Shown here: in pieces, positions 1,338 through 19,160 of the stretch
Numbering within the stretch: position 1 is the first letter of the stretch
How the letters are laid out: each line of letters starts with the position of its first letter
From: Cupriavidus sp. WGlv3
GTDB lineage: Bacteria; Pseudomonadota; Gammaproteobacteria; Burkholderiales; Burkholderiaceae
Direction of reading: 5' to 3'
Length of the DNA: 64,000 nucleotides
NCBI RefSeq assembly: GCF_023952475.1
Contig: NZ_JALHRX010000002.1
Span: 620,001 to 684,000, forward strand
Made by a program: the position numbers and the translations under genes
Notes under the pieces: model-generated
What the model was told of the DNA's origin: nothing
Databases searched by the model: none
The model's input: the letters and a program-made list of their open reading frames with translations, nothing else

Positions 1338-1523
1338 ATGGGCGCCGAAAAAAATATCGGACTTAGTTTCCGGGTCACACCCTCCTTCAAAAAGCTCTTG
1401 GAAACAGCAGCGGGACGCGAGAGACGAAGCCTGACAAATATGCTGGAAGTTGCACTGGAGGATTACTGCCAGCGAAAGGGCATTCTGGTCAATGACCAGG
1501 CCGGCTCCGAGGAGAGCCAATGA
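1338..1523 (+). CDS. Ribbon-helix-helix (Arc/CopG-like) DNA-binding protein
   Basis: A 61-residue protein with the RHH pattern: a short beta strand (GLSFRVTP, residues 8-15), then a helix (SFKKLLETAAGRE), a turn, and a second helix (SLTNMLEVALEDYCQRKG). This matches CopG/Arc-type dimeric repressors and the antitoxins built on the same fold. I chose ATG 1338; a TTG at 1311 is in frame but falls inside the inverted repeat that I read as its operator. It is the first gene of the operon running to 7230, with same-strand spacing that fits co-transcription, so it is probably the operon's repressor. No toxin-like partner is adjacent. Confidence 0.7.
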   Translation: MGAEKNIGLSFRVTPSFKKLLETAAGRERRSLTNMLEVALEDYCQRKGILVNDQAGSEESQ

Positions 1524-1618
1524 AATCGCCCGACTGCTCCAGCGACCCTACGCAGCGCGAGGCTCTCCTCATGGGCGAACACCAAGCAACAAGAAATCAC
1601 CCTCACTTCCCAAACTGA
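1520..1618 (+). CDS. Possible translationally coupled micro-ORF (32 aa)
   Basis: The ATG at 1520 overlaps the stop of the RHH gene as ATGA and has a GGAG six bases upstream. The 32-residue product begins MKSPDCSSDPTQREALLMGE and shows no recognisable domain. It fills most of the otherwise unexplained gap between the RHH gene and the next membrane protein gene, which suggests a leader or small accessory protein, but it could be chance. Confidence 0.25.
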   Translation: MKSPDCSSDPTQREALLMGEHQATRNHPHFPN

Positions 1619-1649
1619 AGCGAGTTTTAATCCCAGCAGAGAACCTGCG

Positions 1650-3167
1650 ATGACTCTCGACACTCGCCTTGGAATTCTGATTCGTCTGTACGAAAAACTG
1701 AAAGGCTGGATTTTTCGTGCGCCAAAGCCCTCATATGAGGCTGCGCACCCAACTCTTAATCCCATCGACATCGAACAGTTGACCATCGAACTGCGGCTGC
1801 GGGAGGAAGGCGAACGTCTTGGGCATCAAGGAGTCCCCAACCAAACTTCAACGGTTCTTTCCGGTCCTGAAATGGCCGTAGTGCACCGCGTGGAAAAGCA
1901 GCGTCAGGAGTACATGCAGTGGGGAGCTATCCGACTTTCAAACGTCAACAACGACATTCACTCGTGCAACCTTATCCAGCGCATCAACAGTGCCCTGGCC
2001 GCAGGTGAGTCATTTGAAAGCAACGTCAATGCGATTATCACGCGCAAAGACACCCAGCTAGAGAGCCTTGCTCAAGCAAAGCATCAAAAACATGTCCAAC
2101 TGGAGCGGTTTAGAGCGACGAACGGACTTACTCGCGATGCCATAGTGCCGAGTGGGCTTAGCAAATGGTCAAAGCGGATAGGTCTGCTTGTGTGCGTATT
2201 GTTCGAGGGAGTGCTCAACGCCAAATTCTTTGCGCAAGGCCTCGACGACGGTCTACTTGGAGGATTCTTCTATGCCTTCGCGCTCGCCTTCGTAAACGTC
2301 TTATTTGCCTTTGGAATCGGGCGTTATCTTCTACCCAATTTATGGCATCAGCGTTTCGAGTGGAAGCTGATGGGGATGGTTGGTCTCGTCTTCATCGTAG
2401 CGTCCGTTGGCGGCGTCGGCCTTGCCATTGCGCACTTTCGTGACACTCTCACGGCCGGCATACCTGACGCCGAGGCGGCCGCGCTGCACGCCTTGAAGGA
2501 GAGCCCCTTTAAGCTCCGCGACATCATGTCTTGGCTACTGTTTCTTCTTAGCGCCTGCTTCGGTCTCAGCGCGGGGTACGCTGGTTTGTCATTTCTAGAC
2601 CGCTACCCAGGTTATACCGCAATCACGGAGGAAGCAGACAAGGCTTCGGATGAGTACGAGGAAGAACTCGAAGACTTGAGGGACGAACTAGATAGAGAGC
2701 GCGATGACGCAGTTGCCGCTCTCGAATCTACGCTACACGATTCGCAGGAGGCCCTTCGCGGCCTTTCCGCTGCGATTCGAACAAAGCGGGATTCGGGAAT
2801 CGATTTTCTTCATGTAATGCAGGAGGCTGAGCGCGCACTTGCGTCTCTGCTAATGACGTTCCGGACCGAGAACACTGTCGCACGTGGGGGCGTTCCTGCT
2901 CCCGCATACTTCAACGAAATTCCCAGATTGCAAGAATTGCCCCTTCCAGACTTCACTGTGGAGCAAGATAAAGCCATCCTGACGCAACAAGAGGCGCTTG
3001 TAGCTGACCTTCTAAAGGGAGAACAGGGCATTCGGTCGCGAATCCAAAACGCCTTCAACCAAAAGTATCAACTTGTGCGCCCCTTGAAAGCGCAATTTCC
3101 GCAGGCTTCAGTAGGCCCCACCTCCGAGACGCCAGCTTCCGCTTCTGGCACAGTCTTAGGGAGCTAA
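1650..3167 (+). CDS. Four-helix membrane protein with C-terminal coiled coil
   Basis: A 505-residue protein. Residues 1-170 are soluble, with helical stretches near 40-55 and 75-155. Four hydrophobic segments follow at about 176-195, 203-226, 240-263 and 293-315. A highly charged coiled coil (about 325-375, rich in Glu/Asp/Arg heptads) and a soluble tail complete it. No enzyme motif is visible, and I do not recognise a named family; the layout resembles DUF4407-type proteins only loosely. It is the first large gene of the operon, and its stop is three bases before the next ATG, so it should be made in step with the VWA-like and MotA/MotB-like proteins. A role as an inner-membrane scaffold or sensor for that complex is inference. 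Confidence 0.65.
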   Translation: MTLDTRLGILIRLYEKLKGWIFRAPKPSYEAAHPTLNPIDIEQLTIELRLREEGERLGHQGVPNQTSTVLSGPEMAVVHRVEKQRQEYMQWGAIRLSNVNNDIHSCNLIQRINSALAAGESFESNVNAIITRKDTQLESLAQAKHQKHVQLERFRATNGLTRDAIVPSGLSKWSKRIGLLVCVLFEGVLNAKFFAQGLDDGLLGGFFYAFALAFVNVLFAFGIGRYLLPNLWHQRFEWKLMGMVGLVFIVASVGGVGLAIAHFRDTLTAGIPDAEAAALHALKESPFKLRDIMSWLLFLLSACFGLSAGYAGLSFLDRYPGYTAITEEADKASDEYEEELEDLRDELDRERDDAVAALESTLHDSQEALRGLSAAIRTKRDSGIDFLHVMQEAERALASLLMTFRTENTVARGGVPAPAYFNEIPRLQELPLPDFTVEQDKAILTQQEALVADLLKGEQGIRSRIQNAFNQKYQLVRPLKAQFPQASVGPTSETPASASGTVLGS

Positions 3168-3170
3168 AAC

Positions 3171-3977
3171 ATGGCACGAGCTAGCCGGCGTAAACAACGC
3201 GAACAACAATTCGACCTACTAAAAATCTTCGGAGGCCTCTTTTTAGTAGCCGCCGCTCTGATTGGGGTTGTATACGTCACTCTCACGAAGGAAAAGGGCG
3301 TCGACAAGGCAACCCTTTGCCCCGCCAACGGTCCCACCGGACACGTGGTCCTTCTTGTTGACCAGACAGACCCGTTCAACTTCGTACAGAAACGCGCTTT
3401 TGAAGCCGAGTTGCAGACCCTCGTACTTCGGCGGACTCCCAAGGGCTCACTACTATCGGTGTACGTGCTTGGTGAAGATTTCACCTTGAATGCGGAGCCT
3501 TTGGTAGAGCTTTGCAATCCCGGCTCCGGAGAGGACAAAAGTGCGCTTACGTCCAACCTAACCCGCCTTCGCAAGCAGTACGAGGAACGCTTCGTACAGC
3601 CACTGATGCAGCAGTCCGAAAAACTGGTTTCCGCGACGCCCGCCAAGAAGTCTCCGATTTTCGAGATGTTGCAACTCATTGGAATCAATGCCTTCAGAAA
3701 ACATGACATCCAAGGCGAGCGGCGTCTCATCGTAGTGTCTGACATGCTCCACAACACCCCTGAGTTCAGTATGTACAAGGGGCTACCAGATTTCGACGCC
3801 TTTACTGACACGGCCTATGGTCGCAAAGCGCAGGCGGACCTTTCAGGCGTCGAGGTGGAGCTCGACTATCTCGTCAACGACCCGAAGATTCAAACTCGCC
3901 GCAATCTAAGCTTCTGGGAAGCCTATTTCAACAAGGCCCGCGCACGCGTGGTGTCGGCCCGACCGCTGGAGGGCTAA
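3171..3977 (+). CDS. Membrane-anchored VWA-like protein
   Basis: A 268-residue protein with a basic N-terminus, one transmembrane segment (about 18-38) and a large domain outside. The domain opens with a hydrophobic strand and an acidic loop, GHVVLLVDQTDP (D64 and D67), and later has a strand followed by an Asp (RRLIVVSDMLHN, D191). That is the arrangement of a von Willebrand A-type fold with a degenerate metal site (DxTD rather than DxSxS). The GGAG ribosome binding site lies over the stop of the preceding gene, and the following ATG is three bases after its own stop. VWA proteins usually mediate metal-dependent protein contacts, so this may tie the membrane complex to a partner. The VWA call rests on pattern only. 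Confidence 0.6.
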   Translation: MARASRRKQREQQFDLLKIFGGLFLVAAALIGVVYVTLTKEKGVDKATLCPANGPTGHVVLLVDQTDPFNFVQKRAFEAELQTLVLRRTPKGSLLSVYVLGEDFTLNAEPLVELCNPGSGEDKSALTSNLTRLRKQYEERFVQPLMQQSEKLVSATPAKKSPIFEMLQLIGINAFRKHDIQGERRLIVVSDMLHNTPEFSMYKGLPDFDAFTDTAYGRKAQADLSGVEVELDYLVNDPKIQTRRNLSFWEAYFNKARARVVSARPLEG

Positions 3978-3980
3978 TAC

Positions 3981-5609
3981 ATGAACAAGACAGCCTACAT
4001 CCCCACTAAGAATCTTTTCTTCCTTGCCGTCGTGCTGAAGGTGCTTTTTGCGGGCATTAGCGTACGGCTCCAGGATGCTTGGGTACTAGGTTTCGGGTTG
4101 CCGCTGGTGGTGATGAGTGCCTACATGGCCCTCGGCTACCGCCGTCGCGACAAGGCCGAAGTTCCTGACGAGAAGTTCGCCGACAGCTGTTACTACTTGG
4201 GATTCATCTTTACGATTGCCTCCATTTGCGCTTGTCTCCTCGACATTCCAAACATTGGAACCAATATGAGCGCCATCGCGGTTCGCTTCGGTGCCGCAAT
4301 GGTGAGTACGGTTCTTGGCCTCTTCGTTCGTGTTTGGCTCGTAACCTTCCGCAAGGACTCGAGCGACGCCGTTGTCGACGCCGGGGAGGCGGTAGTAAAG
4401 GCGTCCTATGCGCTTGCCGACCAGCTAACCGTGTCGCTCAATCACTTCAAGGGCTTTGACGAAGGACTTTTCCGGGCTACTCAGTCCAGCGCGGACAGGG
4501 TCAACCAGCAGATTGAAGCCATCGCCAAGAACTATGCCGCATCACTTGACGGCCTCTTCGAACAGCTTTCTAGCAAACAGAAAGAGCAGGTTGACACTGC
4601 GCTGGCACGGGCAGAGCAGGCAAGCAAGGCACTGGAGAACATCGTCGAGCGGGTCGGTCAAGGGGCAGCAAAGAGCGTGCTCACTGTCCAGCAACGTGCA
4701 GTGGACCTCGTCGGGGAGCTCGAGAATCGTCTGCGCTCCAGCCAATTTCCTGGGGATTACTTTGTAAAGACTCTCGCAGCACCGATGCAAGACTTCCAGG
4801 TAGCTGCCACCGCGCTCAGCACTCAGGTCCAATCGGCCTCCTCCGGCATTGAAAAGTCTACAGGCAAGGTGACTCAGGCATTTAAACGCCTGGAGCAACG
4901 GTCCGATGAGATTGACCAAGCAATCAACTCTGTTGTAACCCTTTCCAAGAGCCAGCATGAAGTCCTCCAGGCTACCCAAGGTCAGATGGACGCCCTCACT
5001 GTGATGGGCCAACAGCTCTGCACAATGGCAGAAGCACTAGCTGAAGTGATGAGACGTCTGGAGTCTTCCAACGGTGAAACCCGCGAACTCACTGGCGCGG
5101 TATCAGAATTTGCCCGCACCAGCGAGACTACAAGGGCGACCCTCGCGGATTCGTTGCATGGCATCACGCGCCAACTTGCCGTTCACGCTGCATCCAACGA
5201 TGCCTTGTCAAAGCAAATGGCCGACAACGTCCTGAATACACGAGAGACTGTCTCAGCGCTGCGAGATGGAGCCTCGGCGAACATCCAAGCTATAACAGAG
5301 ATGAAGACGACGGCCGCAACGCACGAAGAGGTTGCCAGACAGTTGCAGGCGTCCGTCGCCAAGCAGGAAACGGTCGCTGCAGCTCTTTGGGAAGCTGGTG
5401 GGCAATCCATTCGCGTGTCCGAGCAACTCGCCGAGGTTACCTCTCATCTCCAAAGCATCTCAAAGGGACTCCATGCGCCCGTTACGACCGCACCTCATGT
5501 CGGTGCGGCGCCCACAGCCAGTCCCGTTGGTCAAGATATGCGCCCAATAGGGATGGTCATCCAATCCGTGGACGGCCGTGAAGCGATGGCAAGCAAGGAC
5601 TATCCATGA
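3981..5609 (+). CDS. MotA/TolQ/ExbB-like (ZorA-like) membrane protein with long coiled-coil tail
   Basis: A 542-residue protein with four predicted transmembrane helices near the N-terminus (about 10-28, 33-52, 70-88, 97-122), followed by a soluble, almost entirely helical tail from about 140 to 500. The third and fourth helices carry the pattern of MotA/TolQ/ExbB channels: a Gly/Thr helix (YLGFIFTIAS) and a Ser-Thr-x-x-Gly-Leu helix (AAMVSTVLGLFVRVWLV). Long helical tails on such channels are the hallmark of ZorA in Zorya phage-defence systems, where they form an intracellular shaft. The tail could also be mistaken for a chemoreceptor, but the hairpin signalling motif of the MA domain is absent. 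The stop overlaps the ATG of the next gene (ATGA), as expected of subunits made in a fixed ratio. Confidence 0.65.
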   Translation: MNKTAYIPTKNLFFLAVVLKVLFAGISVRLQDAWVLGFGLPLVVMSAYMALGYRRRDKAEVPDEKFADSCYYLGFIFTIASICACLLDIPNIGTNMSAIAVRFGAAMVSTVLGLFVRVWLVTFRKDSSDAVVDAGEAVVKASYALADQLTVSLNHFKGFDEGLFRATQSSADRVNQQIEAIAKNYAASLDGLFEQLSSKQKEQVDTALARAEQASKALENIVERVGQGAAKSVLTVQQRAVDLVGELENRLRSSQFPGDYFVKTLAAPMQDFQVAATALSTQVQSASSGIEKSTGKVTQAFKRLEQRSDEIDQAINSVVTLSKSQHEVLQATQGQMDALTVMGQQLCTMAEALAEVMRRLESSNGETRELTGAVSEFARTSETTRATLADSLHGITRQLAVHAASNDALSKQMADNVLNTRETVSALRDGASANIQAITEMKTTAATHEEVARQLQASVAKQETVAAALWEAGGQSIRVSEQLAEVTSHLQSISKGLHAPVTTAPHVGAAPTASPVGQDMRPIGMVIQSVDGREAMASKDYP

Positions 5610-6703
5610 CACCGAAGCGTCAGGACCAGGTCTTTCAACTATCGCTGACCGAAATTGCATTCACAATCACATTCATCTTGCTGCTCTTGCTGGGCTACAT
5701 GCTTTTCAAGAGCCAGAAAGACATTGAGGACATGCGCAAGCAACTGGACGAGTTTCCCTTGCTTACGGATGTTCAGCAAGGGTTGACCGACGCGAAAAAT
5801 CAGCTTGCCCACGTACTGCAAGGGGCCGGTCTACGAAATCCTGATGAGGCTATTTCCAAGCTGATGGCAGCCGAACAGGCAAAGGCAGAGAATGCTCGAC
5901 TTCGGAAACGACTTGAAGAGTTGGACAAGGAGCTAACGGCACTCGCCGAAGTAAAGGCAAAGATTGAAGCCACCGCGAAGGAAAAACGACCTGATGTCAC
6001 AGCTGCTGAGGTGATGTCTGCATTGACCATGCAAGATGCGGTTATCAAGGCAGTAGAGGGGCATCAAGGCCCCGGTAATGCACAGAGCAGTACCGCAAAG
6101 AAGCCGGACACATCGCGCATCCTTGCCGAGGTTCAACAAGCACTGAAGACGTCCTCAGAGCTTAGGAGGGAACTGAAAGACAAGCTCGACAAAGAGCTTC
6201 CAAAAGGTAAGGAACGGGAGACTGTTCAAGACGTTGTCGACGCTGCGAGCAACTTCATCTCCATGACAAATTCCGGGGCAAATATCAAGGTGCTGCAGAA
6301 GGACAACGCGGACCTTCGCGGCCAGGTGGCGTTCCTCCAAAATCGACTCAATGCCAATGGAGGTCGCGACTATCCCCCATGCTGGCTTAACACCGCCGGG
6401 AAGATTGAGTTCTTGTTTGCGGTCGAGTTACGTCCAGACGGTGTGGCTGTTGCGCCTGCATGGCCGTCCAGTCGCGACGCCGATGCCAAAGCACTCCCCG
6501 GCATCGATGCCATGCTTGCGGGAAGCTTCTCCTATGCCGAGTTCGAGTCGAGAGTTCGACCTATATTTGACTGGAGCCGTAAGCAGAGCCCTGAGTGCAG
6601 ACACTACGTCCAACTCAAAAGCACGCTTACCGACGCTGTCCAGTCTGACCGCATGCGTTTGCGGGTCGAGAACTTTTTCTACAAATCGGAGATACGTCGA
6701 TAG
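5606..6703 (+). CDS. MotB/ExbD-like (ZorB-like) single-pass partner with periplasmic domain
   Basis: A 365-residue protein with one N-terminal transmembrane helix (about 13-34). The helix starts SLTEIAFTITF and so has an acidic residue (E16) where MotB, ExbD and ZorB carry their proton-binding Asp. Coiled-coil stretches follow (about 35-60, 85-125, 170-200, 225-250), then a compact C-terminal domain of some 110 residues with two cysteines (C259, C331), which would be periplasmic and could form a disulphide. The C-terminal domain has no OmpA/MotB peptidoglycan-binding motif that I can see, unlike ZorB. The four-base overlap with the preceding MotA-like gene supports a two-component stator. The partner role is inference from layout and order. 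Confidence 0.6.
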   Translation: MTPKRQDQVFQLSLTEIAFTITFILLLLLGYMLFKSQKDIEDMRKQLDEFPLLTDVQQGLTDAKNQLAHVLQGAGLRNPDEAISKLMAAEQAKAENARLRKRLEELDKELTALAEVKAKIEATAKEKRPDVTAAEVMSALTMQDAVIKAVEGHQGPGNAQSSTAKKPDTSRILAEVQQALKTSSELRRELKDKLDKELPKGKERETVQDVVDAASNFISMTNSGANIKVLQKDNADLRGQVAFLQNRLNANGGRDYPPCWLNTAGKIEFLFAVELRPDGVAVAPAWPSSRDADAKALPGIDAMLAGSFSYAEFESRVRPIFDWSRKQSPECRHYVQLKSTLTDAVQSDRMRLRVENFFYKSEIRR

Positions 6704-7230
6704 TGGCCTCCATCCGATTGTTTGTGCAGAAAGTGACGTTGCCCTTGCAACGGTACGTCGTCGCCTCCGCAGCGGTGCTGGCTTTGGTGAGCACCACAAA
6801 TGCGGCCACTTTTACGGGTAGGGTCGTCCGGATTGTCGATGGGGACACCCTCACTGTACTCAATGATGAAAAGCGCGAGATACGGGTTCGCCTAGCAGGC
6901 ATAGACGCCCCTGAACACAGCCAAGCATGGGGAGAGCGTTCTCGCCAATATCTCGCCAGCCTTGCATTCGCAAAGCGCGTTTCAGTGGAGTGGTACAAGA
7001 CCAGCTACAACCGAGTCATTGGAGTCGTCATTGCGGACGGCGTCGACATATCGCTCGCTCAAGTCAAGGTCGGCTTAGCGTGGCATTACAAGAGATATGA
7101 AGCAGAGCAAGCTCCCAAGGATAGGCAAGCCTACGCCGCAGCCGAGCTTGAAGCGCGGAAAGAGCGGCGCGGCCTTTGGCAGGACCCAGAACCGATACCC
7201 CCGTGGGACTTCCGACGTCGGAGATACTGA
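6703..7230 (+). CDS. Secreted staphylococcal-nuclease-like (SNase) endonuclease
   Basis: A 175-residue protein that starts at GTG 6703, overlapping the previous stop by one base, with GGAG eleven bases upstream. Residues 1-34 form a signal peptide (hydrophobic core about 18-30, ending TNA-A). The SNase fold follows, with the calcium-site VDGDT (D46, D48), RLAGIDAPE holding the catalytic Arg and Glu (R63, E71), a second Arg in YNRVIGVV (R104), and the C-terminal GLWQDPEPIPPWDFR typical of bacterial thermonuclease-family proteins. All residues needed for Ca-dependent cutting of DNA or RNA seem present. Acting in the periplasm, it could cut DNA crossing the envelope. It is the last gene of the operon. 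Confidence 0.85.
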   Translation: MASIRLFVQKVTLPLQRYVVASAAVLALVSTTNAATFTGRVVRIVDGDTLTVLNDEKREIRVRLAGIDAPEHSQAWGERSRQYLASLAFAKRVSVEWYKTSYNRVIGVVIADGVDISLAQVKVGLAWHYKRYEAEQAPKDRQAYAAAELEARKERRGLWQDPEPIPPWDFRRRRY

Positions 7231-7276
7231 GTGTTCGGTAGTTGCATTCTCGCTGATGTCGTTTTCCCGGCGAATC

Positions 7277-7945
7277 TCAAAGGAATGAGCGAACTTCTTG
7301 CAAGTCGGCGCCCGGTACGAAGATGTATCCACCATGGCTGTCCCCGTAAGCTCGCGTTCTTCCCAAGAGCAAAAGCTTTGCTGTCAGGGCACATAACGCA
7401 GCATCCACGGCGTCAATGGAGGTTAGAGAGCTGGCGTTGATGCCGGCATCTTCTAGCACCTTGCGTCGCTGAACGCGCTTTAGTTTTGCCGAAGCGACGT
7501 CCCTACCGATAAGGGAACAGGTGATGGCGTGCGGAAACGTCTCAAAGCTGACCGGCCCTTCGACGTAGCGTTTCTCGAGGAGCAAAGGATACGTAGGCGC
7601 GAATGTCTGGAAGACCTTCTCGCCGCTGAACATCCAACCATAGAATCCGCTGGTGTTTGCTAAGGCCCGCTCTTGTGTCGGTGTCGAGAAGCAAAATATC
7701 TTCTCTTTGGCGAGCTCCTTTTCCGCGAGTCTTCCGGCGCCATCCAAACTCCATCGGCATGGTGAGTCGACGCCAACGGCGACTACCTCGTGCTGAAGAC
7801 AGTCTTGGTACAAGTCTTCCGGATTACTGCTTTTTGCGACACGGCAAACTTCGCGGCCTCGCAAGATAACAAGGTGACATCCCTTTCTTGCCCCGCCGAT
7901 GTCGATGCCGGCTACGGCGACTGTGCCTGAAGCGCTCGTCTTCAC
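7277..7945 (-). CDS. DUF429 family protein (RNase H-like fold)
   Basis: A 222-residue protein with the DUF429 opening (AGIDIGGARKGCHLVIL), a second strand with Asp (VAVGVDSPCRW) and a conserved C-terminal SIDAVDAALCAL. The family is predicted to adopt the RNase H fold and is described as a possible nuclease, but its activity is not established. I prefer GTG 7945, with GGAG six bases upstream, over the in-frame GTG at 7957. The gene faces the stator-like operon end to end with a 46-base gap and is downstream of the ATPase gene on the same strand. Related genes often occur in genomic islands next to restriction systems. Confidence 0.7.
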   Translation of the reverse strand: MKTSASGTVAVAGIDIGGARKGCHLVILRGREVCRVAKSSNPEDLYQDCLQHEVVAVGVDSPCRWSLDGAGRLAEKELAKEKIFCFSTPTQERALANTSGFYGWMFSGEKVFQTFAPTYPLLLEKRYVEGPVSFETFPHAITCSLIGRDVASAKLKRVQRRKVLEDAGINASSLTSIDAVDAALCALTAKLLLLGRTRAYGDSHGGYIFVPGADLQEVRSFL

Positions 7946-8187
7946 TGATGTCTCCACTCGTACTATCGTGGCCGATGGCGCAGTAGCATAACAAACCGGC
8001 TGCCGGCATTTGCGCCGAATCTACAGAAGGGAGGCTCGTCATGCCCCGTCGCTCGCCCTGTAGCAAGCGGGCTGCGTAGGCAAATTGTAGGCGCGACTTC
8101 TTTGCTCAAACTCGAAGGCTCGCAGACTGTACCGTCCTTCAACTTTTTTGGGCAACTGAGCCGCGCCTGCTCCCCAAGACGGCCCAC

Positions 8188-11100
8188 TCAACCCATTTGC
8201 CGGGAGAGTGAAATCTTTTTGAAACGCGGAGCTCCTAGAAACATAAATTTCTTTTCGAAAAGTGCCGCGACCTTCGCGTCGGCCGTTGCAAAGAATACCT
8301 GACGGTGCGAGTTCAGAACGAGGTCGCGCAAGTAATCCAGAAACGAAAGAGCATTCATATCATCTATATGAGCAATTGGGTCATCGATGAGAAGAACAGG
8401 AGGTGCAGAGCGCGCTGTCGAGTTAAGCGATAGAAACACTGACAACGCAAATGCCGCACGTTGGCCGGTGCTCACCTGGTCGAGCCCTCTTGTGGAGTTC
8501 GTTCCTCGCAAGCGGAGAAGGTGCTCTGATGACGATACTGCGAACTCGTACTCTCTGGGCGAGTGGATACGCCCGAACACGTCGTCTATTTGCACCTTTA
8601 TGTTCGACAAGATGCCTTCCATTGCGGAGTCCAGAGAATGGCTCGCGGCGAGTTCCGCCAGTACTGCGTCCGCACTCACCAACCGCGCGCTCTGAGCCTT
8701 CTTCTCTTCCAGTCTCGTGCTGGCTTCTTCATAGTTTTTCTTTAAGCGATTTACCAGCGTCAGCGCCTCTTTCTCGGCATTCAATGCATGCAAGGCCTTA
8801 TCAAATGCCTCAGCTGCTGCATTGACGTCACTTTCCATATCAGCCATTGGAAGCTCGTTGGGCCAATCAGAAAATTCTCTGATATTTCCCACAAACTTCA
8901 ACGCCGATTCAAAGCGCTCCAGGTTCCGCTCAAGCGCTGGCCATATCTCTTGATGCTCCAGGTTTCGCTCTTGAGAGGGCATCAAATCACTGTCTATAAG
9001 CCAACGCAACTCAGCGGAAATCTCTGCCATCTCTCCGGTAAGGTGTTCAATGATTGCCCTCAGGTCTTCCTGTTCACCAGAAATTTGGAGCAATGCGTTC
9101 TGTATGAAGCCGACGTCCTCTACGTCGTCTCCTTCCTCGAAGGCATCCCGTACTTGCGGGTAAAGTGTCTCCATCCGGGCAGAGCTTAGACCCGAACGCT
9201 TCACAGCATTCATTTTCTCTTGGGTCGCGGTCTGCCCATCGGTAGCCCGCTTGAGTGCTAGCTCAGCATTACGAAGCGTGGTAAGTATTTGCTCCGCTGT
9301 CGCTAGCGCAGGATTCAAATTTAGATTTTTGGCAACCGACAGAAGGTGCTTAAGGTCTTTTTGAATACGCCGCGCCTCGATTTCTCGCTCCTTGCTACGC
9401 TGAACATGGCTTACGAGCTGCTCAACGCCCGCGGAGGCATGCTTGATATTCAGCTTCTCAATCTTCGCGTGCAGAATTTCTGGCTCATGGGGCGTCTCGC
9501 ACACTGGACAGAGCTCTGGAGACCCTCCCTCTTTGGCTACAACTCGAGCGGCCGCCTGCAACTGTGCAATTGCCACCGCTAGCGAATCACGAATAGACTG
9601 GATTTCGCCCAGTGTGGATTCCGCCCTCATTACCTCCGTCTGGGCATCAAATACACGACTCTGGCACCGCTCCAGCGCTGTCTGCAAAGGACTATGCGCC
9701 AGCTCGTCGGGGAGCGGGCTAAGCACAATGCCTGCAAGTTGGCCTAACCGGTGTCGGCATTCTTTGACTTCGACGTCCCAGTGCCTTGCCTCTCGAACTA
9801 AACCTGGAAGACCAGCCTTGCAATAGGAAAGCCACTCATCTAAAAGCCCCCCAATCTCACTGAAATTTGAAAGCCTCTCGCGGTTCTCCTTGATGACAGC
9901 ATTAAGATGCTTTCGTTTAGCCTCGACGGGACTTGCCCGCTGGTGGATTGCCGCAAGCGCCTCGGTATAATCTCGCAAGGCAAGAGGCGTAACATCCACT
10001 CCGGATATTAGGCTTCGAATTTTTGTGATAAACAACAAAACAAGTTCGAGAGGCTTGCGCTCTTCCGGGACCAATGCTTCCCCAGTCCGCATCTCCGGTA
10101 CTTTCCATCCCAGAGCTCGAAGTTGAGCACGGAAATTCATTGCTAGCGATGTCGCCTCGGTAGGCGCCCGTTTAGCTTGGTCAACCTCTCTCTTTAATGC
10201 GCTACATCGAACGGCTTCAGTTTCCACCTCCCGTTGAATCTCTCGACGCCGCGTCGCTATATCGGCCTTCAATTTCTCGAAATAGTCCCACAGCGTCGAA
10301 GCCTCCATACCAACGAGGAGTCGTCGAAGGTCGTCATGTAGTGAAGAGTGGTCGAGTTCACGTGCAATTCGATGTGCCGCGTCAGTGTCGAGGAAGTTAT
10401 AGCGGGTAAAATTATCCAGAATTCCCTTCGACTGATGAGCTTCCGTTCGGTACCAGGCTAAATTTCTACTTTTTAATCTCCCAGCTTCGCTGGTCGATGC
10501 CACAGCAAACTCACTGTCCGACCCCGGTAGTTGCACGGTACCACGAAGAATATGAGTCCCAACGTCCGTTCCACGCCTATTGTGTCCGCAATAGAGGTAT
10601 TCAATAGCTTCTAAGAGCGATGTCTTGCCAACACCATTCGGCCCAACAATGAGATTGACGTCTCCGAAGCGAAAGCTTCGACCATTGTGAACCGGTCGGA
10701 AAGTAACAATTTCCAGCTGACGCAGAAAACCTTCGCTTAGCGCTTGGTCCTTCGCAGAAAGGCTGGAGGGGGCCTTTTTGGCGATGGGCTTTACCGCATG
10801 CCCATTCTCAATCCGGTCAATTGCGCGGGCGCGGGGAGGCCTGTCCAAGAGTAGATTCAATTGTCGCTGCTCAAGCAGCGAAATCCATGCATCAACTACA
10901 CCACTGGTGTCAAAATCGGACTGGGGTGCAAAGAGCGGCGACTCGGCCAGAACGTCCAGCAGTTCATTTGCCGAAAGTACATACTTACGCGCGTAATCCT
11001 TATTCGCTTCGATACGAGCCTTGATGTTTGCGTACTCAGAACTGCTCTGCGAATTCAATCCAGCGATAAAGTAGAGGTAATTGTTCCAACGAAGCGTCTC

Positions 11101-11313
11101 GCTGGTATCGAAGTAGTCTGGACCTATCAAGGTCTCTTGATATGACCGCAAGTCTTCGACGCGCTCAAGCAAGTTATCGTTGAAGTCAAAGTAGAGCACC
11201 GCAAATGCTTTTTCAGCGTATGTACGTTCGACACGAAGGACGCCCTCTTGGACCTCCGTGACATTATGGAAGTGGGACTTTACTGCTTCTTGTATTTCAA
11301 TCAAATCAGCCAT
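8188..11313 (-). CDS. Rad50/SbcC-like SMC-type ATPase
   Basis: A 1041-residue protein. Residues 1-190 form an N-terminal region of no recognised family. An ABC-type ATPase head follows, split by a long coiled coil: Walker A GPNGVGKT (224-231), a zinc-hook-like CPVC (602-605) in the middle of the coils, the signature VSTGQRAA (947-954) and Walker B VLLIDDP (973-979), ending with the switch-region strand VFFATAD. This is the layout of Rad50/SbcC and of many defence ATPases (RecF- and OLD-like), which move or sense DNA together with an effector. The only gene in tight linkage is the nitrilase-like gene, whose stop lies 12 bases upstream. No SbcD-like nuclease is adjacent, so it is unlikely to be a housekeeping SbcC. 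Confidence 0.85.
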   Translation of the reverse strand: MADLIEIQEAVKSHFHNVTEVQEGVLRVERTYAEKAFAVLYFDFNDNLLERVEDLRSYQETLIGPDYFDTSETLRWNNYLYFIAGLNSQSSSEYANIKARIEANKDYARKYVLSANELLDVLAESPLFAPQSDFDTSGVVDAWISLLEQRQLNLLLDRPPRARAIDRIENGHAVKPIAKKAPSSLSAKDQALSEGFLRQLEIVTFRPVHNGRSFRFGDVNLIVGPNGVGKTSLLEAIEYLYCGHNRRGTDVGTHILRGTVQLPGSDSEFAVASTSEAGRLKSRNLAWYRTEAHQSKGILDNFTRYNFLDTDAAHRIARELDHSSLHDDLRRLLVGMEASTLWDYFEKLKADIATRRREIQREVETEAVRCSALKREVDQAKRAPTEATSLAMNFRAQLRALGWKVPEMRTGEALVPEERKPLELVLLFITKIRSLISGVDVTPLALRDYTEALAAIHQRASPVEAKRKHLNAVIKENRERLSNFSEIGGLLDEWLSYCKAGLPGLVREARHWDVEVKECRHRLGQLAGIVLSPLPDELAHSPLQTALERCQSRVFDAQTEVMRAESTLGEIQSIRDSLAVAIAQLQAAARVVAKEGGSPELCPVCETPHEPEILHAKIEKLNIKHASAGVEQLVSHVQRSKEREIEARRIQKDLKHLLSVAKNLNLNPALATAEQILTTLRNAELALKRATDGQTATQEKMNAVKRSGLSSARMETLYPQVRDAFEEGDDVEDVGFIQNALLQISGEQEDLRAIIEHLTGEMAEISAELRWLIDSDLMPSQERNLEHQEIWPALERNLERFESALKFVGNIREFSDWPNELPMADMESDVNAAAEAFDKALHALNAEKEALTLVNRLKKNYEEASTRLEEKKAQSARLVSADAVLAELAASHSLDSAMEGILSNIKVQIDDVFGRIHSPREYEFAVSSSEHLLRLRGTNSTRGLDQVSTGQRAAFALSVFLSLNSTARSAPPVLLIDDPIAHIDDMNALSFLDYLRDLVLNSHRQVFFATADAKVAALFEKKFMFLGAPRFKKISLSRQMG

Positions 11314-11325
11314 TTCGAAATATCC

Positions 11326-13071
11326 CTAATCCTGCTCACTTGGCTCAATGACGCGAGAAATGTCTGCAAGACCGTTGTCGACCATATCAAAGCGTGTTAG
11401 CGCAGGAATTTGAGCGAAAACTAACTGTCCGTGTCGTCTGAAGCAAATCGCGATGCGGTGACTGTAAGTTCGCCCCTCCTTCCGAAGAAGCTCATACAGA
11501 CCATCGGCAGCAGCACGAACCGTTTTACCCTCGGGATGCTCTCCCAAATAGACCACCAATGCGGGCTCCATATTGTCGCGGCGGAGATTGTAGTTTGGGT
11601 CGTTCGCAACCCACGACAGACTTGCACCCTTAATGTCCCTGACCTGTGGTGGCCAGTCGACGTGGTGCTCAATTATCTTCCCCAGAGCGGCTGTGCGTTG
11701 GATAGCGGTATTACGGTATTCTGACGCTCTCGGATGAGAGTCGGCAGCGAACGTCACTCGTCGAACAATTTCATCCGCATCCAGTCGACAAGCTTCGAGT
11801 AAATCGAGCTTGAACCATCGCTCTTGGTGACGACTGCGCCCAGCGGCAAGGCTTACCACCCGCTCAACGGCTAAATCATCGCCCGCACCGTGGACATTTC
11901 TTAGCGCGAAAGCGACGTCTTCATCCTCTTCAAGAATCGTCGCAAGACCCGTTTCCGGACATTCGACGTCTTCGCTCCACACCTCTGCCTCAGCATCCCA
12001 CCGGTACCGCGCCACCATCAGTGGTCCAAGCGAGTTGACTAATACACTATCGACATCTGCAACCGGTTTAGAAATCGACAGCTTGAAAACCGCTTCGTCG
12101 TAGTGAAAGAGGAGCGCATGACGCCGCTCTTCCATGAAGCAATAATAAAGTCCCTTTTTATGATTTCGCAGAATCTCGACATCGGATGTTGAGCACCGAC
12201 CATGCGGCAAGTACCATGCGGAACCCCCAATGTTCTTCCAGTCCGTTGGTTCTGCTCCACCTTGGTCATACTGCTTTACATTCTTCGCCCAATTCAGACA
12301 CACAATATCGCAGTTGGTTAGCTCTTTGTTTCCTCTGAACGTCAGGGTGCGATATGCGCGGTAGTCCGGATGTCTCGGATTAGGGTTGAGTTGGATGTGT
12401 ATTAGCGTTGCTCGGTCCGTCAGCCTTCTCAGAACTCCTGCAGCGGTAGCAAGCGCAAACGCATCGGAACAAATGATGACACCGAGACTAAGTAACTCGT
12501 CTGGACTTTGGAAGCGGTAGATAGTTGTACCGCGAATCAGGTGCTCGTTCTCAAGAAAGTGGTCGTCACGAGAAGGGGCTGTTTTGAACTGAATCAAAAC
12601 GACGCGAGTCCAATCTCCACTGTCCGTTTGTGTTTGAAAGCAAAGCGCCACGGGGTCCAAATATGTGCCATGTGGCGGAACTGGCTCATGGATGACAATG
12701 GCTTGCACCGCTGTAGCAAAAGCCTCGAGCTCCGCGCCAGTAATGCTCTCGCAGCCAAGCACCCAAAGACGCCCAGGGGTAGGAAAAGCTTCGCTTTCCA
12801 CCGCCTTCTGTAAGACAGACCACGGCACACAATACTCCGGCGCAATCGCTATGTCTGCTTCAGTGGCAACGGCGAGCTTCAAAAAGCTCGAGCACTTTTG
12901 AGTTGCTATCGTCTGGTCGTACGCGCCAATGCGGTCGTCACCGGCATAGATAGACCAGCTTGGTTGCAGCAAAAGACCGTTGTAGTTCTGATTGTCTGGC
13001 GACAACGCGAATAACACAGGGGGCTGAAGTCCCTTCTTGGCCAGTACAACGTTAACCGACTCACATTTCAC
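11326..13071 (-). CDS. Nitrilase-superfamily (carbon-nitrogen hydrolase) protein with C-terminal extension
   Basis: A 581-residue protein. The first 330 residues carry a complete nitrilase triad in the correct order and spacing: Glu in ADIAIAPEYCVP (E79), Lys in VVLIQFKTAP (K163) and the nucleophilic Cys in LGVIICSDAF (C201). The last 250 residues are an extension of unknown fold. Nitrilase-fold enzymes hydrolyse C-N bonds of nitriles, amides or carbamoyl groups; the substrate here is unknown. The gene sits first in a two-gene operon with the Rad50-like ATPase and directly after hsdR, 183 bases away. Nitrilase domains are known in some defence reverse transcriptases (DRT type 1), but no such domain is present here. 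An effector role is inference. Confidence 0.75.
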   Translation of the reverse strand: MKCESVNVVLAKKGLQPPVLFALSPDNQNYNGLLLQPSWSIYAGDDRIGAYDQTIATQKCSSFLKLAVATEADIAIAPEYCVPWSVLQKAVESEAFPTPGRLWVLGCESITGAELEAFATAVQAIVIHEPVPPHGTYLDPVALCFQTQTDSGDWTRVVLIQFKTAPSRDDHFLENEHLIRGTTIYRFQSPDELLSLGVIICSDAFALATAAGVLRRLTDRATLIHIQLNPNPRHPDYRAYRTLTFRGNKELTNCDIVCLNWAKNVKQYDQGGAEPTDWKNIGGSAWYLPHGRCSTSDVEILRNHKKGLYYCFMEERRHALLFHYDEAVFKLSISKPVADVDSVLVNSLGPLMVARYRWDAEAEVWSEDVECPETGLATILEEDEDVAFALRNVHGAGDDLAVERVVSLAAGRSRHQERWFKLDLLEACRLDADEIVRRVTFAADSHPRASEYRNTAIQRTAALGKIIEHHVDWPPQVRDIKGASLSWVANDPNYNLRRDNMEPALVVYLGEHPEGKTVRAAADGLYELLRKEGRTYSHRIAICFRRHGQLVFAQIPALTRFDMVDNGLADISRVIEPSEQD

Positions 13072-13254
13072 AGTTAAGCCTCAACCTTTACTCCAAGCGG
13101 GACATGTCGCACCGCTTACTCTCCAGTGCAGCAGCACTCTGGCGACGCAGTTCTATTTTTGATAACGGTCCTTGGCTCTTTTCCGTTAATCAAATATTTG
13201 AACAAAAAAATGACATAACGCAACAAGCGCGATATGGTGAACATCTGCGTAAGC

Positions 13255-16200
13255 CTAAGACCATGCTTCCCCCAACGCTTCGGCCTGTTGCAGCACTAGT
13301 TCCACGGCGCCTTCCTGTTGGTCCGGCGGATACCTGTACTTTCGCAATATCCGCTTCACCATCAACCGCAGCTTGGCCCGAACGCTTTCTCGAGCTGACC
13401 AGTCCACGGTGATGTTTTCGCGCAAATTTGCAGTAAGCTCATGGGCAATCTTTTTCAAGGTCTCATCGCTAAGCTCGCGAACGGCAGACTCGTTGTTTGC
13501 TAACGCATCGTAGAAACGAACCTCGTCCTCAGTCAGCCCCAGCTCTTCGCCCCGGCTAGCGGCCGCTCGGAACTTCTTGGCCATGTCGATGAGCTCTTCG
13601 ATTACTTGGGCCGTCTCAATGGCCCGATTCTGGTAGCGCTTCACCACGTTGGACAACAGCTCGGAAAACTTCTTCTCCTGGACAACGTTCCCAGCGAATC
13701 GACTCTTGATTTCGCCCTCGAGCAGTCGCTCTAGCAGTTCCACGGCGAGATTGCGCTCTGGCAGGTTGCGCACTTCCGCCAAGAAAGCGTCGTCAAGAAT
13801 GCCGATATTCGGTTTGTCGAGGCCGACCGCCTCAAACACATCCACCACCTCTTCGGAAACTACCGCCGAACCAATGATTTGTCGGATGGCCAGCTCTCGC
13901 TCCTCGTCGGTGCGCTTTTTTTCGCTGAGTTCCCGTTTGGTCAGGATGACCTTGACGGCCTGCATAAAGGCCACTTCCTCTCTTACGGCCTTGGCCTCGT
14001 CCAGCGTGCAGCAAAGCGTAAAGGCCTTGCTCATTGCAAGCGCCGTGTCCGCAAAGCGCTTCTTGCCCTCCTTGACGCCCAGTACATGGTTGGCGGCACC
14101 GGCTAGCCGCCTGTGGCCTGCTGTCAGGAAGTCGCTGTAGTCGTAGCCGTGGAGCATGCCACGCAGGACGTCCAGTTTCTCCTCCAGGATGGAGTACGCC
14201 TCGGCAGCATCTACGGTCGGCCTACCGCGTCCGTTGCTAGCCGTATATTCCTTTAGCGCGCTCTTGAGCTCATTGGCAATGCCGATGTAGTCAACTACCA
14301 AGCCGCCTTGCTTGTCCTTGAAGACACGGTTGACGCGCGCAATGGCCTGCATCAAATTGTGGCCCTTCATGGGCTTGTCCACGTACAGGGTGTGGACGCA
14401 TGGCGCATCGAAGCCCGTTAGCCACATGTCGCGCACGATGACGATGCGCAACGGGTCGACAGGGTCCTTGAAGCGTTTTTCCAAGCGTTTCTTGACCTGG
14501 CCGCTGTAAATGTGGGGCCGTAGCAGCGCCTTGTCGCTAGCTGAACCCGTCATCACGATTTTGATGGCACCTTTCTCCGGGTCGGGGTCATGCCAGTCGG
14601 GGCGCAGCTTGATGATTTCGTTGTAGAGATGAACGCAAATCTCGCGGCTCATGGCAACCACCATGGCCTTACCGCTCTGCGCATTGTTCCGTTCCTCGAA
14701 GTGAGCCACCAAATCGGCCGCGACGGCCGCTACCCGAGGCTCCGCGCCCACCACCTTTTCCAGGGCGGCCCAGCGGCTCTTCAGTTTCGCCTGCTGACTT
14801 TCTTCTTCATCCTCGGCGAGTTCGTCCACTTCCTCGTCTATCTGAGGTAGTTCCTCAGCCTTGAGCGACAGCTTGGCCAAGCGGGACTCGAAGTAGATGG
14901 CAACCGTGGCGCCATCCTCCTTGGCCTGCTGCATGTCGTAGACGTGGATGTAGTCTCCGAACACGGCGCGCGTATCACGGTCCTCGCTCGATACCGGCGT
15001 GCCAGTGAAGGCCACGAAGGTGGCATTGGGTAGTGCATCACGCAGATGCTGTGCATAGCCGACCTGATATTTCTCCTGCCCGGGCTTGCCTTTCAGTTGT
15101 GCTTCGAAACCGTACTGCGTCCGGTGGGCTTCGTCGGCGATGACCACGACGTTGCGCCTGTCCGACAGCATGGGGAAGATATCTTCATCTTCTCCTGGCA
15201 TGAACTTCTGGATGGTCGCGAATACGATGCCGCCCGAAGGCCGATTCGCCAGCTTTGCGCGCAAGTCCTGCCGTGTTGAAGCCTGGACAGGTTGCTCGCG
15301 TAACAAATCCTGCGCCAGAGAAAACACGCCAAACAGTTGCCCGTCGAGGTCGTTACGGTCAGTGATGACAACGATGGTTGGGTTCTCCATCGCCGCTTCT
15401 TGCATCACGCGTGCGGCAAAGCACGTCATGGTGATGCTTTTGCCACTGCCCTGCGTGTGCCAGACTACCCCGCCTTTGTGGCTACCGCCGGGCAGGGAAG
15501 CCGACACTACTTGCTGTATGGCGGCGCGAACGGCGTGGAACTGGTGATAGCCGGCGATTTTTTTTACCAGGGTACCGTCGTCCTCGAACAGCACGAAGAA
15601 GCGCAGGTAGTCCAGCAGATAGGCCGGCGCCAGCACGCCCCGGACGAGGGTCTCCAGCTCATTGAACTGGCCGAGCGGGTCAAGAGTGAGGCCATCGACC
15701 GTCCGCCACTGCATGTAGCGCTCGCCGTTGGCCGAGAGCGAGCCCATGCGCGCTTGCGAGCCGTCGCTGATGACCAGGATTTCGTTGTACTGGAAAACGT
15801 CGGGAATCTGCTCCTTGTAAGTCTGAATCTGGTCGTATGCCTTCCAGATATCGGCGTTCTCGTCGGCAGGATTCTTGAGCTCAAGCAGTACCAGCGGCAG
15901 GCCATTGACGAACAGGATTATGTCAGGCCGCCTAGGGTGATGCGGCCCCTGGATGCGGTATTGATTTATTGCCAACCACTCGTTGGCCGACGGGTTGGCC
16001 CAGTCGATGAGGCGGACGAAATCGCCTCGGGTTTCGCCGTCCTTTTGGTATTCGACCGACACACCACCGAGCAGCAATTGATGAAAGCGCCGGTTGGCTG
16101 AAAGTTGGACCGGGATACCAAGGTCTCGGACGTGACGGAGAGCATCTTCCCGGGCGGCCAGTGGGATGCTCGGATTCAGGCGACCAATGGCGCCGCGCAG

Positions 16201-16341
16201 ACGTTCGACCAACAGGACTTGACGGTAGTCGGTACGCTCAACGTTGGCTCCGTCGGGAGCGAGGTCAGGTCCGAAGAGGCAGTCATAGCCGACTTCGGAG
16301 AGCCAGCCGAGCGTTTCCTGTTCCAGTTGGTCTTCTGTCAT
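13255..16341 (-). CDS. hsdR: Type I restriction endonuclease, R subunit
   Basis: A 1028-residue motor subunit that cuts unmodified DNA after ATP-driven translocation. The N-terminal PD-(D/E)xK nuclease is visible as [10 protein letters not shown] followed by LVLLELKNP. The helicase motifs follow in order: [10 protein letters not shown] (Walker A), [12 protein letters not shown] (DEAH), AFTGTPVS (motif III) and [10 protein letters not shown] (motif VI). Length and start ([14 protein letters not shown]) fit the type IC EcoR124-like family. Its ATG lies seven bases after the hsdS stop, so hsdM-hsdS-hsdR form one operon. No frameshift or missing motif was seen. Confidence 0.95.
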
Positions 16342-16348
16342 CGTGGAT

Positions 16349-17611
16349 TCAGGCTGCGATGACTTCTTCGGCCTCGACGAGGCGGAGTTGGCCGGATATC
16401 AGGCGCGGAAGAAGACGGTCGCGGATGGAACTTAGAGTCTCTATCCGATTTCTGTTGATTACGACTGTATCATGCAGTGAGGCCGTGACATCAGAGAATC
16501 GACGTAGGATTTTTAGCGGGGGCAAAACAAACTTAATAGAACGTAGATAGCTCACAGGTTTCGCAATGGACGGAACACCAACCTGCGAGGCATTAGCCAG
16601 TAATAAGTGCTGCCCAGTCGCGCTTCGTAGGAAATAGGTAATCCATTCGGGCGTCATCCTATTTTTATCGCACCGAAGAAAAAACTGACTCTGTGACGTC
16701 ATGTATGACGGGTGCTTAGAGTTTTGGGGGATAAGAGAAACCTGACCAAGCGTACCCCGGTGTGTGATAACTACATCCCCTGAATACACGGATGAGTTCT
16801 TGAGCCGTTCTGCATGAGCTTCAGTAATGCAGTTGGCGGCATGGTCTTCCAACAACGTTTCCTGCAGATGCTTTCCACTTAACACCGGAACGCCATTAGG
16901 GACAAACGTAGAAACCTTTATGTTGGAGCCAAATGGGCCCATTCCAACTTTTTCCGCAATATCTTCGATTCGAGTTATCTGCCATCCCGCTGGAATCTCC
17001 CCCAAGGGTGAATCCTCGAAGCTATCCGGAAACATTTCGGCGGCGGCTTCATCCACACCGTCTAAAGCCAAACCGTTTCGTTTGGCGTGGACCGGGTCAA
17101 AGTCGACGAACCAGGACTTAAAGAGAGCTTGAGCAATTGCTTCGAGCGTGGCGTTGGTTTCGCGCAGGAGAGTTATACGGTCGTCGAAAGACTGAAGGAG
17201 AGCAACGATAGCGTCCTGCTCGCCTCGTTCCGCGACCCGAATAGGAATCGTATAGAGGAAATTGCGATTCAAGGACGGCTGCGCGCTACCGGAGTTGAAG
17301 GCGGCTAGGTCAAGGGTCTGCAACAGATAGTACGCGAATCTCGGGTTGTTCCCCAAGAAATCAGTCACATAGAGACATGTGTTGTGAGGCCAGTAATCGA
17401 CCTCACAAAAGTGGACACGTCCTGCGGAGGCTCCACTACGACCCACGACAACGCCGGGGCCCTTTGCAAGCGCTACATTGTGTGTTCCGTTCGGACCTGC
17501 GGACCCCATGATTGGCACGTTGCCGGGCTGCTGCTCGGACGCCGTCAGGTCGTGCCCCCGTTGAAGACGCACAAATTTGCCGAGGGTACAGGCGCGCCAC
17601 TCAGAACTCAT
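16349..17611 (-). CDS. hsdS: Type I restriction-modification specificity subunit
   Basis: A 420-residue protein with two target-recognition domains of about 150 residues, each followed by a helical conserved region (near residues 130-165 with [22 protein letters not shown] cut here to its core, and near 380-410 with [16 protein letters not shown]). These residues set the DNA half-sites recognised by the complex. The start overlaps the hsdM stop by eleven bases. The target sequence cannot be predicted by eye. The gene appears intact, so the system is probably functional. Confidence 0.92.
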
Positions 17612-19160
17612 AGCCCAGCCCTCCCAACTTCAGCCGAATCAACTGGTCCAGTTCTGCACCCTTTGCCATCTGCTCACCCAATTTCTCAGTGAGCTTCTGC
17701 ATCTTCTCTGCAAAAGCCTCATCGTCTTCCTCGACCTCCTCGGCGCCCACATAGCGCCCTGGGGTCAACACATGCCCGTGCTCGGCAATCTCTGCGAGGT
17801 TCACGCTACGGCAATAGCCGGGAATGTCCTCGTACTCGCCGACGCCCTCGCCAACCTCGCCCCGCCAAGCGGCGACGGTGTTGGCAATCCTATCGATGGT
17901 GTCATCGGTCAATTCAGCCTGAACCCGGCTAATCATGGTTCCAAGCTTGCGCGCATCGATGAACAGCACTTCACCCGTTCGGGTGATTTTCTGCTTTGCC
18001 AGGAACCACAGGCAGGCTGGAATCTGGGTGTTGAAGAAGAGCTGCCCCGGAAGGGCCACCATGACTTCCACCGCATCGGCGTCCACCATCGCGCGGCGAA
18101 TATCACCTTCGCTGTTCTGGCTTGAACTCATGGAACCGTTTGCCAGCACAATGCCCGCCCGGCCATTGGACTTCAGGTGATACAGCATGTGCTGTAGCCA
18201 GGCATAGTTCGCATTGCCCTGGGGGGGGGTGCCGTAGACCCAACGGGGGTCGCCCTCCAGGCTGCCGTGCCACCAGTCGCTGACATTGAAAGGTGGATTG
18301 GCTAGGACGAAGTCGGCGCGCAAGTCCGGATGCTGGTCGCGCACAAACGTGTCCGCAGGTTCTCGACCCAGGTTGTAGTCAATGCCCCGGATGGCCAAGT
18401 TCATGGCCGCCAGTCGCCAAGTGGTGGGATTGGACTCCTGCCCGTAGATGGACACATCCCCCAGCTTACCGCCATGAGCCTCGATGAACTTCTCCGATTG
18501 GACAAACATGCCACCGGAACCGCAACAGGGGTCGTAGACCTTGCCATGGTGGGGCGCCAAGACGGCCACGAGCGTCTTGACAATCGAGGCCGGCGTGTAG
18601 AACTGGCCGCCTTTTTTACCTTCCGCGCTAGCAAACTGACCAAGGAAGTACTCATAGACCTGGCCAAGAACATCGCGAGCCTGGCTAGCGTCCGAACCGA
18701 AACCGATGGTCGATATCAGGTCAACCAGTTCCCCCAGCTTGCCGTCGGGCAGCTGTGCCCGTGCATAGCGCTTGTCTAGGATGCCCTTGAGCTTCGGGTT
18801 CTCCCCCTCGATTTCGGCAAGGGCCTCATCTACGCGCTTGCCAATGTCGGTCTGCTTGGCAGCGCTGCGGAGATTCTCCCAGCGGGCAGACTCGGGGACC
18901 CAGAAAACATTGACTTCCTTGTAGTAGTCCCGGTCTTCCAGCTCCCCAGTGAGCATCTCCTCGTCGCATTCGTGCAGGAAATACTCGTCGTTTTCGTCGG
19001 CGAATCGGCGTGTCAGCTCGGCGCGGCGGGCAGCGAATGTGTCAGAGACATATTTGAGGAAGATGAGGCCGAGGACGAGATGCTTGTATTCAGCGGCGTC
19101 CATGTTGGCCCGCAGCTTGTCAGCGGCAGCCCAGAGTGTTTTCTTGATATCGTCCAGCAT
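17601..19160 (-). CDS. hsdM: Type I N6-adenine DNA methyltransferase subunit
   Basis: A 519-residue methyltransferase that protects host DNA and forms the core of the HsdM2S enzyme. The N-terminal HsdM helical bundle is followed by the SAM-binding motif I ([14 protein letters not shown]) and the catalytic motif IV ([10 protein letters not shown]), in the order of gamma-type N6-adenine enzymes. The length matches type IC enzymes. The gene begins at ATG 19160 and heads the hsdMSR operon. A short inverted repeat at 19248-19259, about 90 bases upstream, may belong to its promoter region. Confidence 0.95.

Follow-up and report, generated by a model that had tools for sequence, protein, structure and literature searches.

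A stator, VWA and nuclease gene module on mobile islands and plasmids of proteobacteria, a candidate envelope defence

Gene content of the locus

The window, a stretch of 64,000 nucleotides of Cupriavidus DNA, carries near its beginning a small gene for a putative regulator and, behind it on the same strand, five genes that we call p2 to p6:

1338..1523, + strand: small RHH-like putative regulator of 61 aa, loosely linked (ORF list; Pfam TacA1/RHH_1 below cut-off)
1650..3167, + strand: p2, membrane protein of 505 aa with four TM segments at about 177-307 and coiled coils on either side (ORF list, hydropathy)
3171..3977, + strand: p3, 268 aa, N-terminal TM segment and periplasmic VWA domain (ORF list, hydropathy)
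3981..5609, + strand: p4, 542 aa, MotA/TolQ/ExbB-class stator A subunit with four TM segments and a coiled cytoplasmic tail
5606..6703, + strand: p5, 365 aa, MotB/ZorB/TolR-class stator B subunit with a single TM segment, the acid E16 and a periplasmic coil
6703..7230, + strand: p6, 175 aa, SNase-family (thermonuclease) protein with an N-terminal signal-type hydrophobic stretch

In the window's ORF list three bases separate p2 from p3 and three separate p3 from p4, while p4 and p5 overlap in an ATGA at 5606-5609 and p5 and p6 have one base in common. An earlier note on this DNA had described six tightly packed genes on one strand. The ORF coordinates bear this out for p2 to p6 but not for the RHH gene, which lies 126 bases ahead of p2, outside the tight packing, and which is only weakly assigned to the RHH family, its Pfam E values of 0.025-0.09 missing the cut-offs. 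A homologue of this gene stands near the module at three distinct loci only (L011, L012 and L015), in L015 on the opposite strand.

The GC content is 55% over bases 1-26,000 of the window and 68% beyond. The 55% GC region that includes the operon is an acquired island, and the step near position 26000 is its likely boundary.

The stator pair

Hydropathy gives four TM segments in p4. The Pfam family MotA_ExbB matches 15 of 21 p4 members at E ≤ 0.1 (best 2.5e-4) and is the most frequent family among them, followed by the coiled-coil family Apolipoprotein (12/21); the p4 of the window itself scores 17.4 bits with MotA_ExbB, under the gathering score of 22.9. The protein displays the motif D68-x2-YY-x-GF-x2-T78 and a further threonine, T110. 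Both T78 and T110 are invariant across the members, and in a profile alignment they fall on the Thr pair of TolQ, which according to PMC12583513 forms a polar ring around TolR D23. Behind TM4 follows a tail of about 301-506 residues in the 21 members; for the window the coiled tail had been put at roughly 350 residues, which hydropathy corrects to about 420.

The partner p5 has one TM segment with Glu16 at its start, and an acid (Glu or Asp) is invariant at this position across the members, in agreement with the acidic residue that the earlier note had placed in the p5 helix. The MotA_ExbB matches, the invariant Thr pair and the p5 acid together uphold its stator pair of p4 and p5, the relation of p4 being one of sequence only. 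The C-terminal domain of the window p5 (residues 268-365; Cys pair C259/C331) has a fold near TolR/ExbD in arrangement, but tied with unrelated folds, and shows no OmpA domain match. The alphaproteobacterial p5 proteins do carry an OmpA domain, and the p5 of L078 has a MotB-family match (E 5.9e-6).

Two further membrane proteins

A four-helix membrane protein had likewise been proposed, and p2 has four TM segments by hydropathy. It reaches no Pfam, PADLOC or NCBIfam family above the cut-off, yet it is kept in 41 of the 42 modules described below and is absent only from L017. Hydropathy gives p3 one TM segment, and the periplasmic part was found to have the VWA fold, which supports the VWA-like protein of the earlier reading. 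MIDAS-like residues lie at D64-x-T66, S161 and D191, and C50 and C115 form a conserved Cys pair. In the alignment D64, S161 and D191 are invariant and the second MIDAS position is Thr or Ser; compared with the canonical MIDAS (DxSxS...T/S...D), the rows that we read have Pro, Ala or Asp in place of the third Ser. We interpret the VWA domain of p3 as probably a partner-binding element, and p2 as what may be a further membrane subunit of the same machine.

Distribution of the module

The genes p3, p4 and p5 occur together at 42 loci, 41 of them with p2, in beta-, gamma- and alphaproteobacteria. These loci were compiled from a pattern scan, from plasmid hits and from a phylum sample. Near-copies are among them (L125/L126, L085/L091 and L078/L089), the module ends of L079, L088 and L090 are approximate, and several of the loci also helped to build the profiles later used to recount them. 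The order p2-p3-p4-p5 is the same wherever coordinates were read. The earlier reading had been made to depend on a gene order conserved in other genomes; since the four genes co-occur in 41 of 42 loci of three classes, the operon arrangement is not a product of chance.

Homologues of p3 number 347 at E ≤ 0.001, of which 120 are listed. A scan of named genomes gave 24 loci, 17 with p2-p3-p4-p5 in order (Rodentibacter, Rahnella, Pseudomonas and Methylotuvimicrobium among the carriers), one with p3-p4-p5 (L017) and six with p2-p3 only. Alphaproteobacterial copies appear in 24 plasmid records, of which 14 loci were read; the carriers are rhizobia, Microvirga, Paracoccus and Tistrella, and copies sit on chromosomal islands as well. 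Within the phylum of the window, p3 matches at E ≤ 1e-5 in 15 of 398 sampled genomes: eight of the 15, that of the window included, hold p3, p4 and p5, three loci have p2-p3 only, and four matches are weak and partial. Another count has 5 of 148 genomes positive, again with that of the window. The module is a widespread and horizontally moving set of four genes, often accompanied by a nuclease.

The nuclease and its linkage to the module

The protein p6 is an SNase-family enzyme and putative nuclease. Pfam SNase matches it with E 3e-20 (73 bits against a cut-off of 21), and R63, E71 and R104 are present, an Arg/Glu/Arg set which we take to be the catalytic set of SNase. Its hydrophobic stretches are residues 11-29 at the N-terminus and 105-123 inside the SNase domain. 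In the 6.75-Mb assembly that carries the window p6 is the sole SNase match at E ≤ 0.001. Over 16 genomes (98.65 Mb, L020 left out) 7 of 16 SNase matches adjoin a module, one of the seven being broken, where 0.025 would be expected (P ~2e-16).

At 26 of the 42 loci the module has a nuclease gene, or what is left of one, fused to it or no more than 1.3 kb away, on either side and either strand and with three broken or partial cases (L011, L019 and L090). Three unrelated families occupy this place: SNase, Endonuclease_NS and GmrSD_C/HNH. The other 16 modules have no nuclease of these three families within 1.3 kb; at L008 one lies 4.1 kb away. An Endonuclease_NS gene with a signal-type N-terminus adjoins the module in two relatives of the same genus, L015 (E 9e-49) and L010, and where the standalone nucleases are intact, a hydrophobic stretch of signal type is seen close to their N-terminus. 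The window's own genome also contains an Endonuclease_NS gene split into two pieces (G000, C94:11418-11985).

The linkage is covalent in some genomes. In L131 the OmpA domain of p5 is followed by a terminal SNase domain (PF00565, E 2.3e-13), in L130 by a terminal GmrSD_C/HNH domain (PF07510, E 2.3e-11). Among the matches listed, 162 p5 homologues (90% clusters found with the fused queries L131 and L130, one of these searches entered with the best 120 of 135 hits) fall into three groups: an SNase tail is present in 29, an HNH tail in 53, and neither in 80. As the queries were themselves fused, the first two numbers should not be read as frequencies in the population. The acid motif in the TM segment is present in 28/29, 45/53 and 77/80 of these, respectively. 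On a quick FastTree tree p5 has switched its cargo at least 25 times; many branches of this tree are weak, and the well-supported ones force 8-12 changes per label. Because the OmpA-type domain that precedes it should bind the wall, as judged from its family, the fused nuclease domain would be periplasmic, and the recurrence of SNase and HNH/GmrSD_C domains at the periplasmic end of p5 locates the nuclease on the motor's outer face. The earlier proposal of a periplasmic rather than a cytoplasmic nuclease is strengthened by these direct fusions.

Nuclease and p2-p5 might alternatively be no more than island companions without a functional link, as the 16 modules without a recognised nuclease nearby and the occurrence of standalone SNase genes on either strand and side would allow. 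The direct p5-SNase and p5-HNH fusions and the excess of SNase linkage (7/16 against 0.025 expected) make this highly improbable. Tol and Ton power the import of nuclease bacteriocins, and the nuclease of the module could accordingly be an effector against neighbours or a suicide effector, driven by the motor into the foreign or the own cytoplasm. A motor with a nuclease on its periplasmic side is in line with this, and a T6SS VgrG gene is found near the L086 copy, though none of the three nuclease families is represented close to this copy. The fused nucleases, however, are tied to a peptidoglycan-binding subunit anchored in the membrane, which makes their release or import less likely, and no immunity gene was recognised among the annotated neighbours that were read; we regard such an effector as improbable.

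Defence genes in the neighbourhood

Downstream of the operon, 7277-19160 of the window on the - strand holds a type I restriction-modification set and three further genes:

7277-7957, - strand: DUF429 gene
8188-11313, - strand: SMC/LmuB-like ATPase
11326-13071, - strand: unknown protein of 581 aa
13255-16341, - strand: hsdR, type I restriction-modification set
16349-17611, - strand: hsdS, type I restriction-modification set
17601-19160, - strand: hsdM, type I restriction-modification set

The restriction-modification set lies 6-12 kb downstream of the module, within the same 55% GC island. A DUF429 gene 65% identical to that of the window adjoins the module in a second genome of the genus (L008, 12520-13107), and its protein may be an accessory of the module.

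At a threshold of E ≤ 1e-15, 124 ORFs flanking 20 loci match 104 PADLOC families, against 2 families for the 117 control ORFs, which were taken from 18 arbitrary stretches of 13 kb in module-carrying genomes. Both figures count matching families and not genes, and the 25 flank families shown match one or two ORFs each; they include type III restriction, type IV restriction, LmuB, PD-T4-4, reverse transcriptase and Cas1. The flank set represents 124 of 142 picked ORFs; the three genes for Endonuclease_NS were left out, as were 15 outer ORFs. For the control 152 ORFs were picked from 19 stretches and thinned to 124, of which the last seven, all from L110, were dropped; the coordinates of the stretches were chosen by hand, and the L101 stretch begins about 10 kb from a module. 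Some plasmid copies are close to toxin-antitoxin or CHAT genes, and some alphaproteobacterial ones (L083, L085 and L091) lie among metabolic genes.

This neighbourhood bears on the possibility that the module is a Tol/Ton-like energy transducer for the uptake or turnover of extracellular DNA, in which the nuclease would degrade DNA as a nutrient source or limit its uptake and have no immune role. The TolR/ExbD-like arrangement of the window p5 C-domain, the secreted nucleases, the periplasmic VWA domain and the position of some alphaproteobacterial copies among transport genes are in line with such a transducer. A conflict function nevertheless fits better than nutrition with the patchy and mobile distribution (5/148 genomes; 24 plasmid records), with the strong defence-gene neighbourhood and with the repeated swapping of nuclease types, so that the transducer, although the least unlikely of the alternatives, is not favoured.

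Comparison with Zorya and other known systems

The module shares much with Zorya (types I, II and III): a presumably ion-driven inner-membrane stator of MotA/MotB type, an A subunit with a long cytoplasmic tail, as p4 has it, an acid in the B helix, a peptidoglycan-binding B domain (in alphaproteobacterial p5), a defence-island context and a nuclease effector. It could therefore be regarded as a divergent Zorya type, with p4 and p5 as ZorA and ZorB, which works via the cytoplasmic tail of p4 and for which the periplasmic nuclease is incidental. The common layout of stator, long tail and nuclease speaks for this, as do weak matches of p4 to ZorA models (PADLOC E 0.001; NCBIfam ZorA_3 E 2.5e-5 for a Rhizobium p4).

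These matches, however, are confined to the coiled coil behind the TM helices (residues 168-253 and 135-327). Against the ZorA and ZorB family models of PADLOC and NCBIfam at full length, p4 yields coiled-coil pieces only and p5 no ZorB match, and a comparison of the p4 and ZorA profiles gave no match (P 0.12). In 20 of 21 members of p4, 13-17 residues separate TM2 from the channel-helix motif, and in L010 there are 37 (hydropathy and motif), while by the same measure 83-105 residues precede the channel helices in 8 ZorA proteins and 93-118 in 23 TolQ/ExbB proteins. An extra TM helix stands before the channel pair of p4, and the cytoplasmic stretch that ZorA has there is missing. PMC12505986 describes as the mark of Zorya a cytoplasmic part made of two helices and a beta-sheet, whose place in the chain we infer. 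PADLOC found no ZorC, D, E, F or G among nine window proteins, and no Zor family is among the 25 of 104 flank families shown for the other loci. The module further adds p2 and the VWA protein p3, and as effector it has either a periplasmic protein or a domain joined to the periplasmic end of p5, whereas ZorC/D and ZorE act on intracellular DNA (PMC11890865).

We rejected membership of Zorya on two grounds, the missing ZorA cytoplasmic domain in p4 and the periplasmic site of the effector, and we consider a divergent Zorya type unlikely, slightly more so than a Tol/Ton-like transducer. Of the Zorya-like reading in the earlier note the stator pair, the VWA protein and the periplasmic nuclease stand; its filing as Zorya falls with the short p4 loop and the lack of a full-length ZorA or ZorB match.

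With TolQR, ExbBD and MotAB the module has in common the Thr pair of the channel helices and the acid of the B helix; the C-domain arrangement of the window p5 recalls TolR/ExbD, and the OmpA domain of alphaproteobacterial p5 recalls MotB. It differs from them in the very short TM2-TM3 loop, the long coiled tail, the nuclease cargo and its location on mobile islands and plasmids, and no TolA/TonB or flagellar genes were noticed alongside. DNases such as Dns and IdeA, which limit DNA uptake from the periplasm or from outside the cell, likewise meet incoming DNA outside the cytoplasm, but they are stand-alone enzymes, whereas the nuclease of the module is tied to a stator and a VWA protein. GmrSD and SspE-type HNH nucleases work in the cytoplasm, whereas the HNH domain of the module comes after the periplasmic OmpA domain. 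They share the family PF07510, as fused to p5 in L130; this DUF1524 HNH family is known in type IV restriction factors (PMC12409362).

Literature searches, with subscription papers mostly outside their coverage, found no description of this gene set. The stator-VWA-nuclease system is real, widespread and undescribed in the literature searched. It stands next to Zorya as a variant and does not belong to it, and it most likely serves as an envelope defence.

Proposed mechanism

We propose, with a probability of about 0.7, that an ion-driven stator and a periplasmic nuclease together form an envelope defence against incoming DNA. By analogy to MotAB, TolQR and ZorAB, a ring of p4 would surround a dimer of p5 in the inner membrane, in a presumed stoichiometry, and would be driven by an ion flow along the conserved stator-type residues. 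The p5 subunit would span the periplasm and anchor there, in alphaproteobacteria through the peptidoglycan-binding OmpA domain and in the Cupriavidus form through the TolR/ExbD-like domain. As effector a periplasmic nuclease may serve, either a secreted partner (p6 in the window) or the domain fused to p5. The motor would respond to a breach of the wall by a phage, a conjugative element or transforming DNA; such a breach could release it into rotation, as has been proposed for Zorya, and the nuclease would be moved at the entry site. It would thus be brought to, or activated on, DNA that crosses the periplasm, which it may cut in vivo and so protect the cell. Such a defence would need no label of self and non-self because the cell's own DNA is never in the periplasm.

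Whether the module further represents a separate class of immunity, with a wall-anchored stator, exchangeable periplasmic nucleases (SNase, NucA/EndA-type and HNH), a distinction of own and foreign DNA by compartment alone and a VWA sensor or clamp, we consider an even bet. How Zorya-type motors turn an event at the envelope into the destruction of DNA is still being worked out. A nuclease that in some genomes sits covalently on the periplasmic end of p5 fixes the site of the effector, and makes the coupling directly testable. If the proposal is true, a motor-based defence would operate outside the cytoplasm and without self/non-self labels.

Variants and incomplete modules

In Methylotuvimicrobium (L023) a gene for a glycine-rich membrane protein of 160 aa (13358-13840) overlaps the end of p5, and none of the three nuclease families is found nearby.

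The pair p2-p3 occurs without p4 and p5 at nine loci (L025, L026, L028-L031 and L132-L134), of which L028 lies on a short contig. Six of them (L025, L026, L028-L031) are from Burkholderiales MAGs, in which no stator pair is adjacent; in five such p2-p3-only MAG assemblies p5 was not matched anywhere with a beta-type profile run without a positive control. At the four MAG loci whose sequences were read (L025, L026, L030 and L031) a gene for a small secreted protein stands ahead of p2-p3. At L134 the pair (5580-9494) overlaps a gene for a conjugative coupling protein of TraG/TrwB type, a hint that p2-p3 may act close to DNA transfer.
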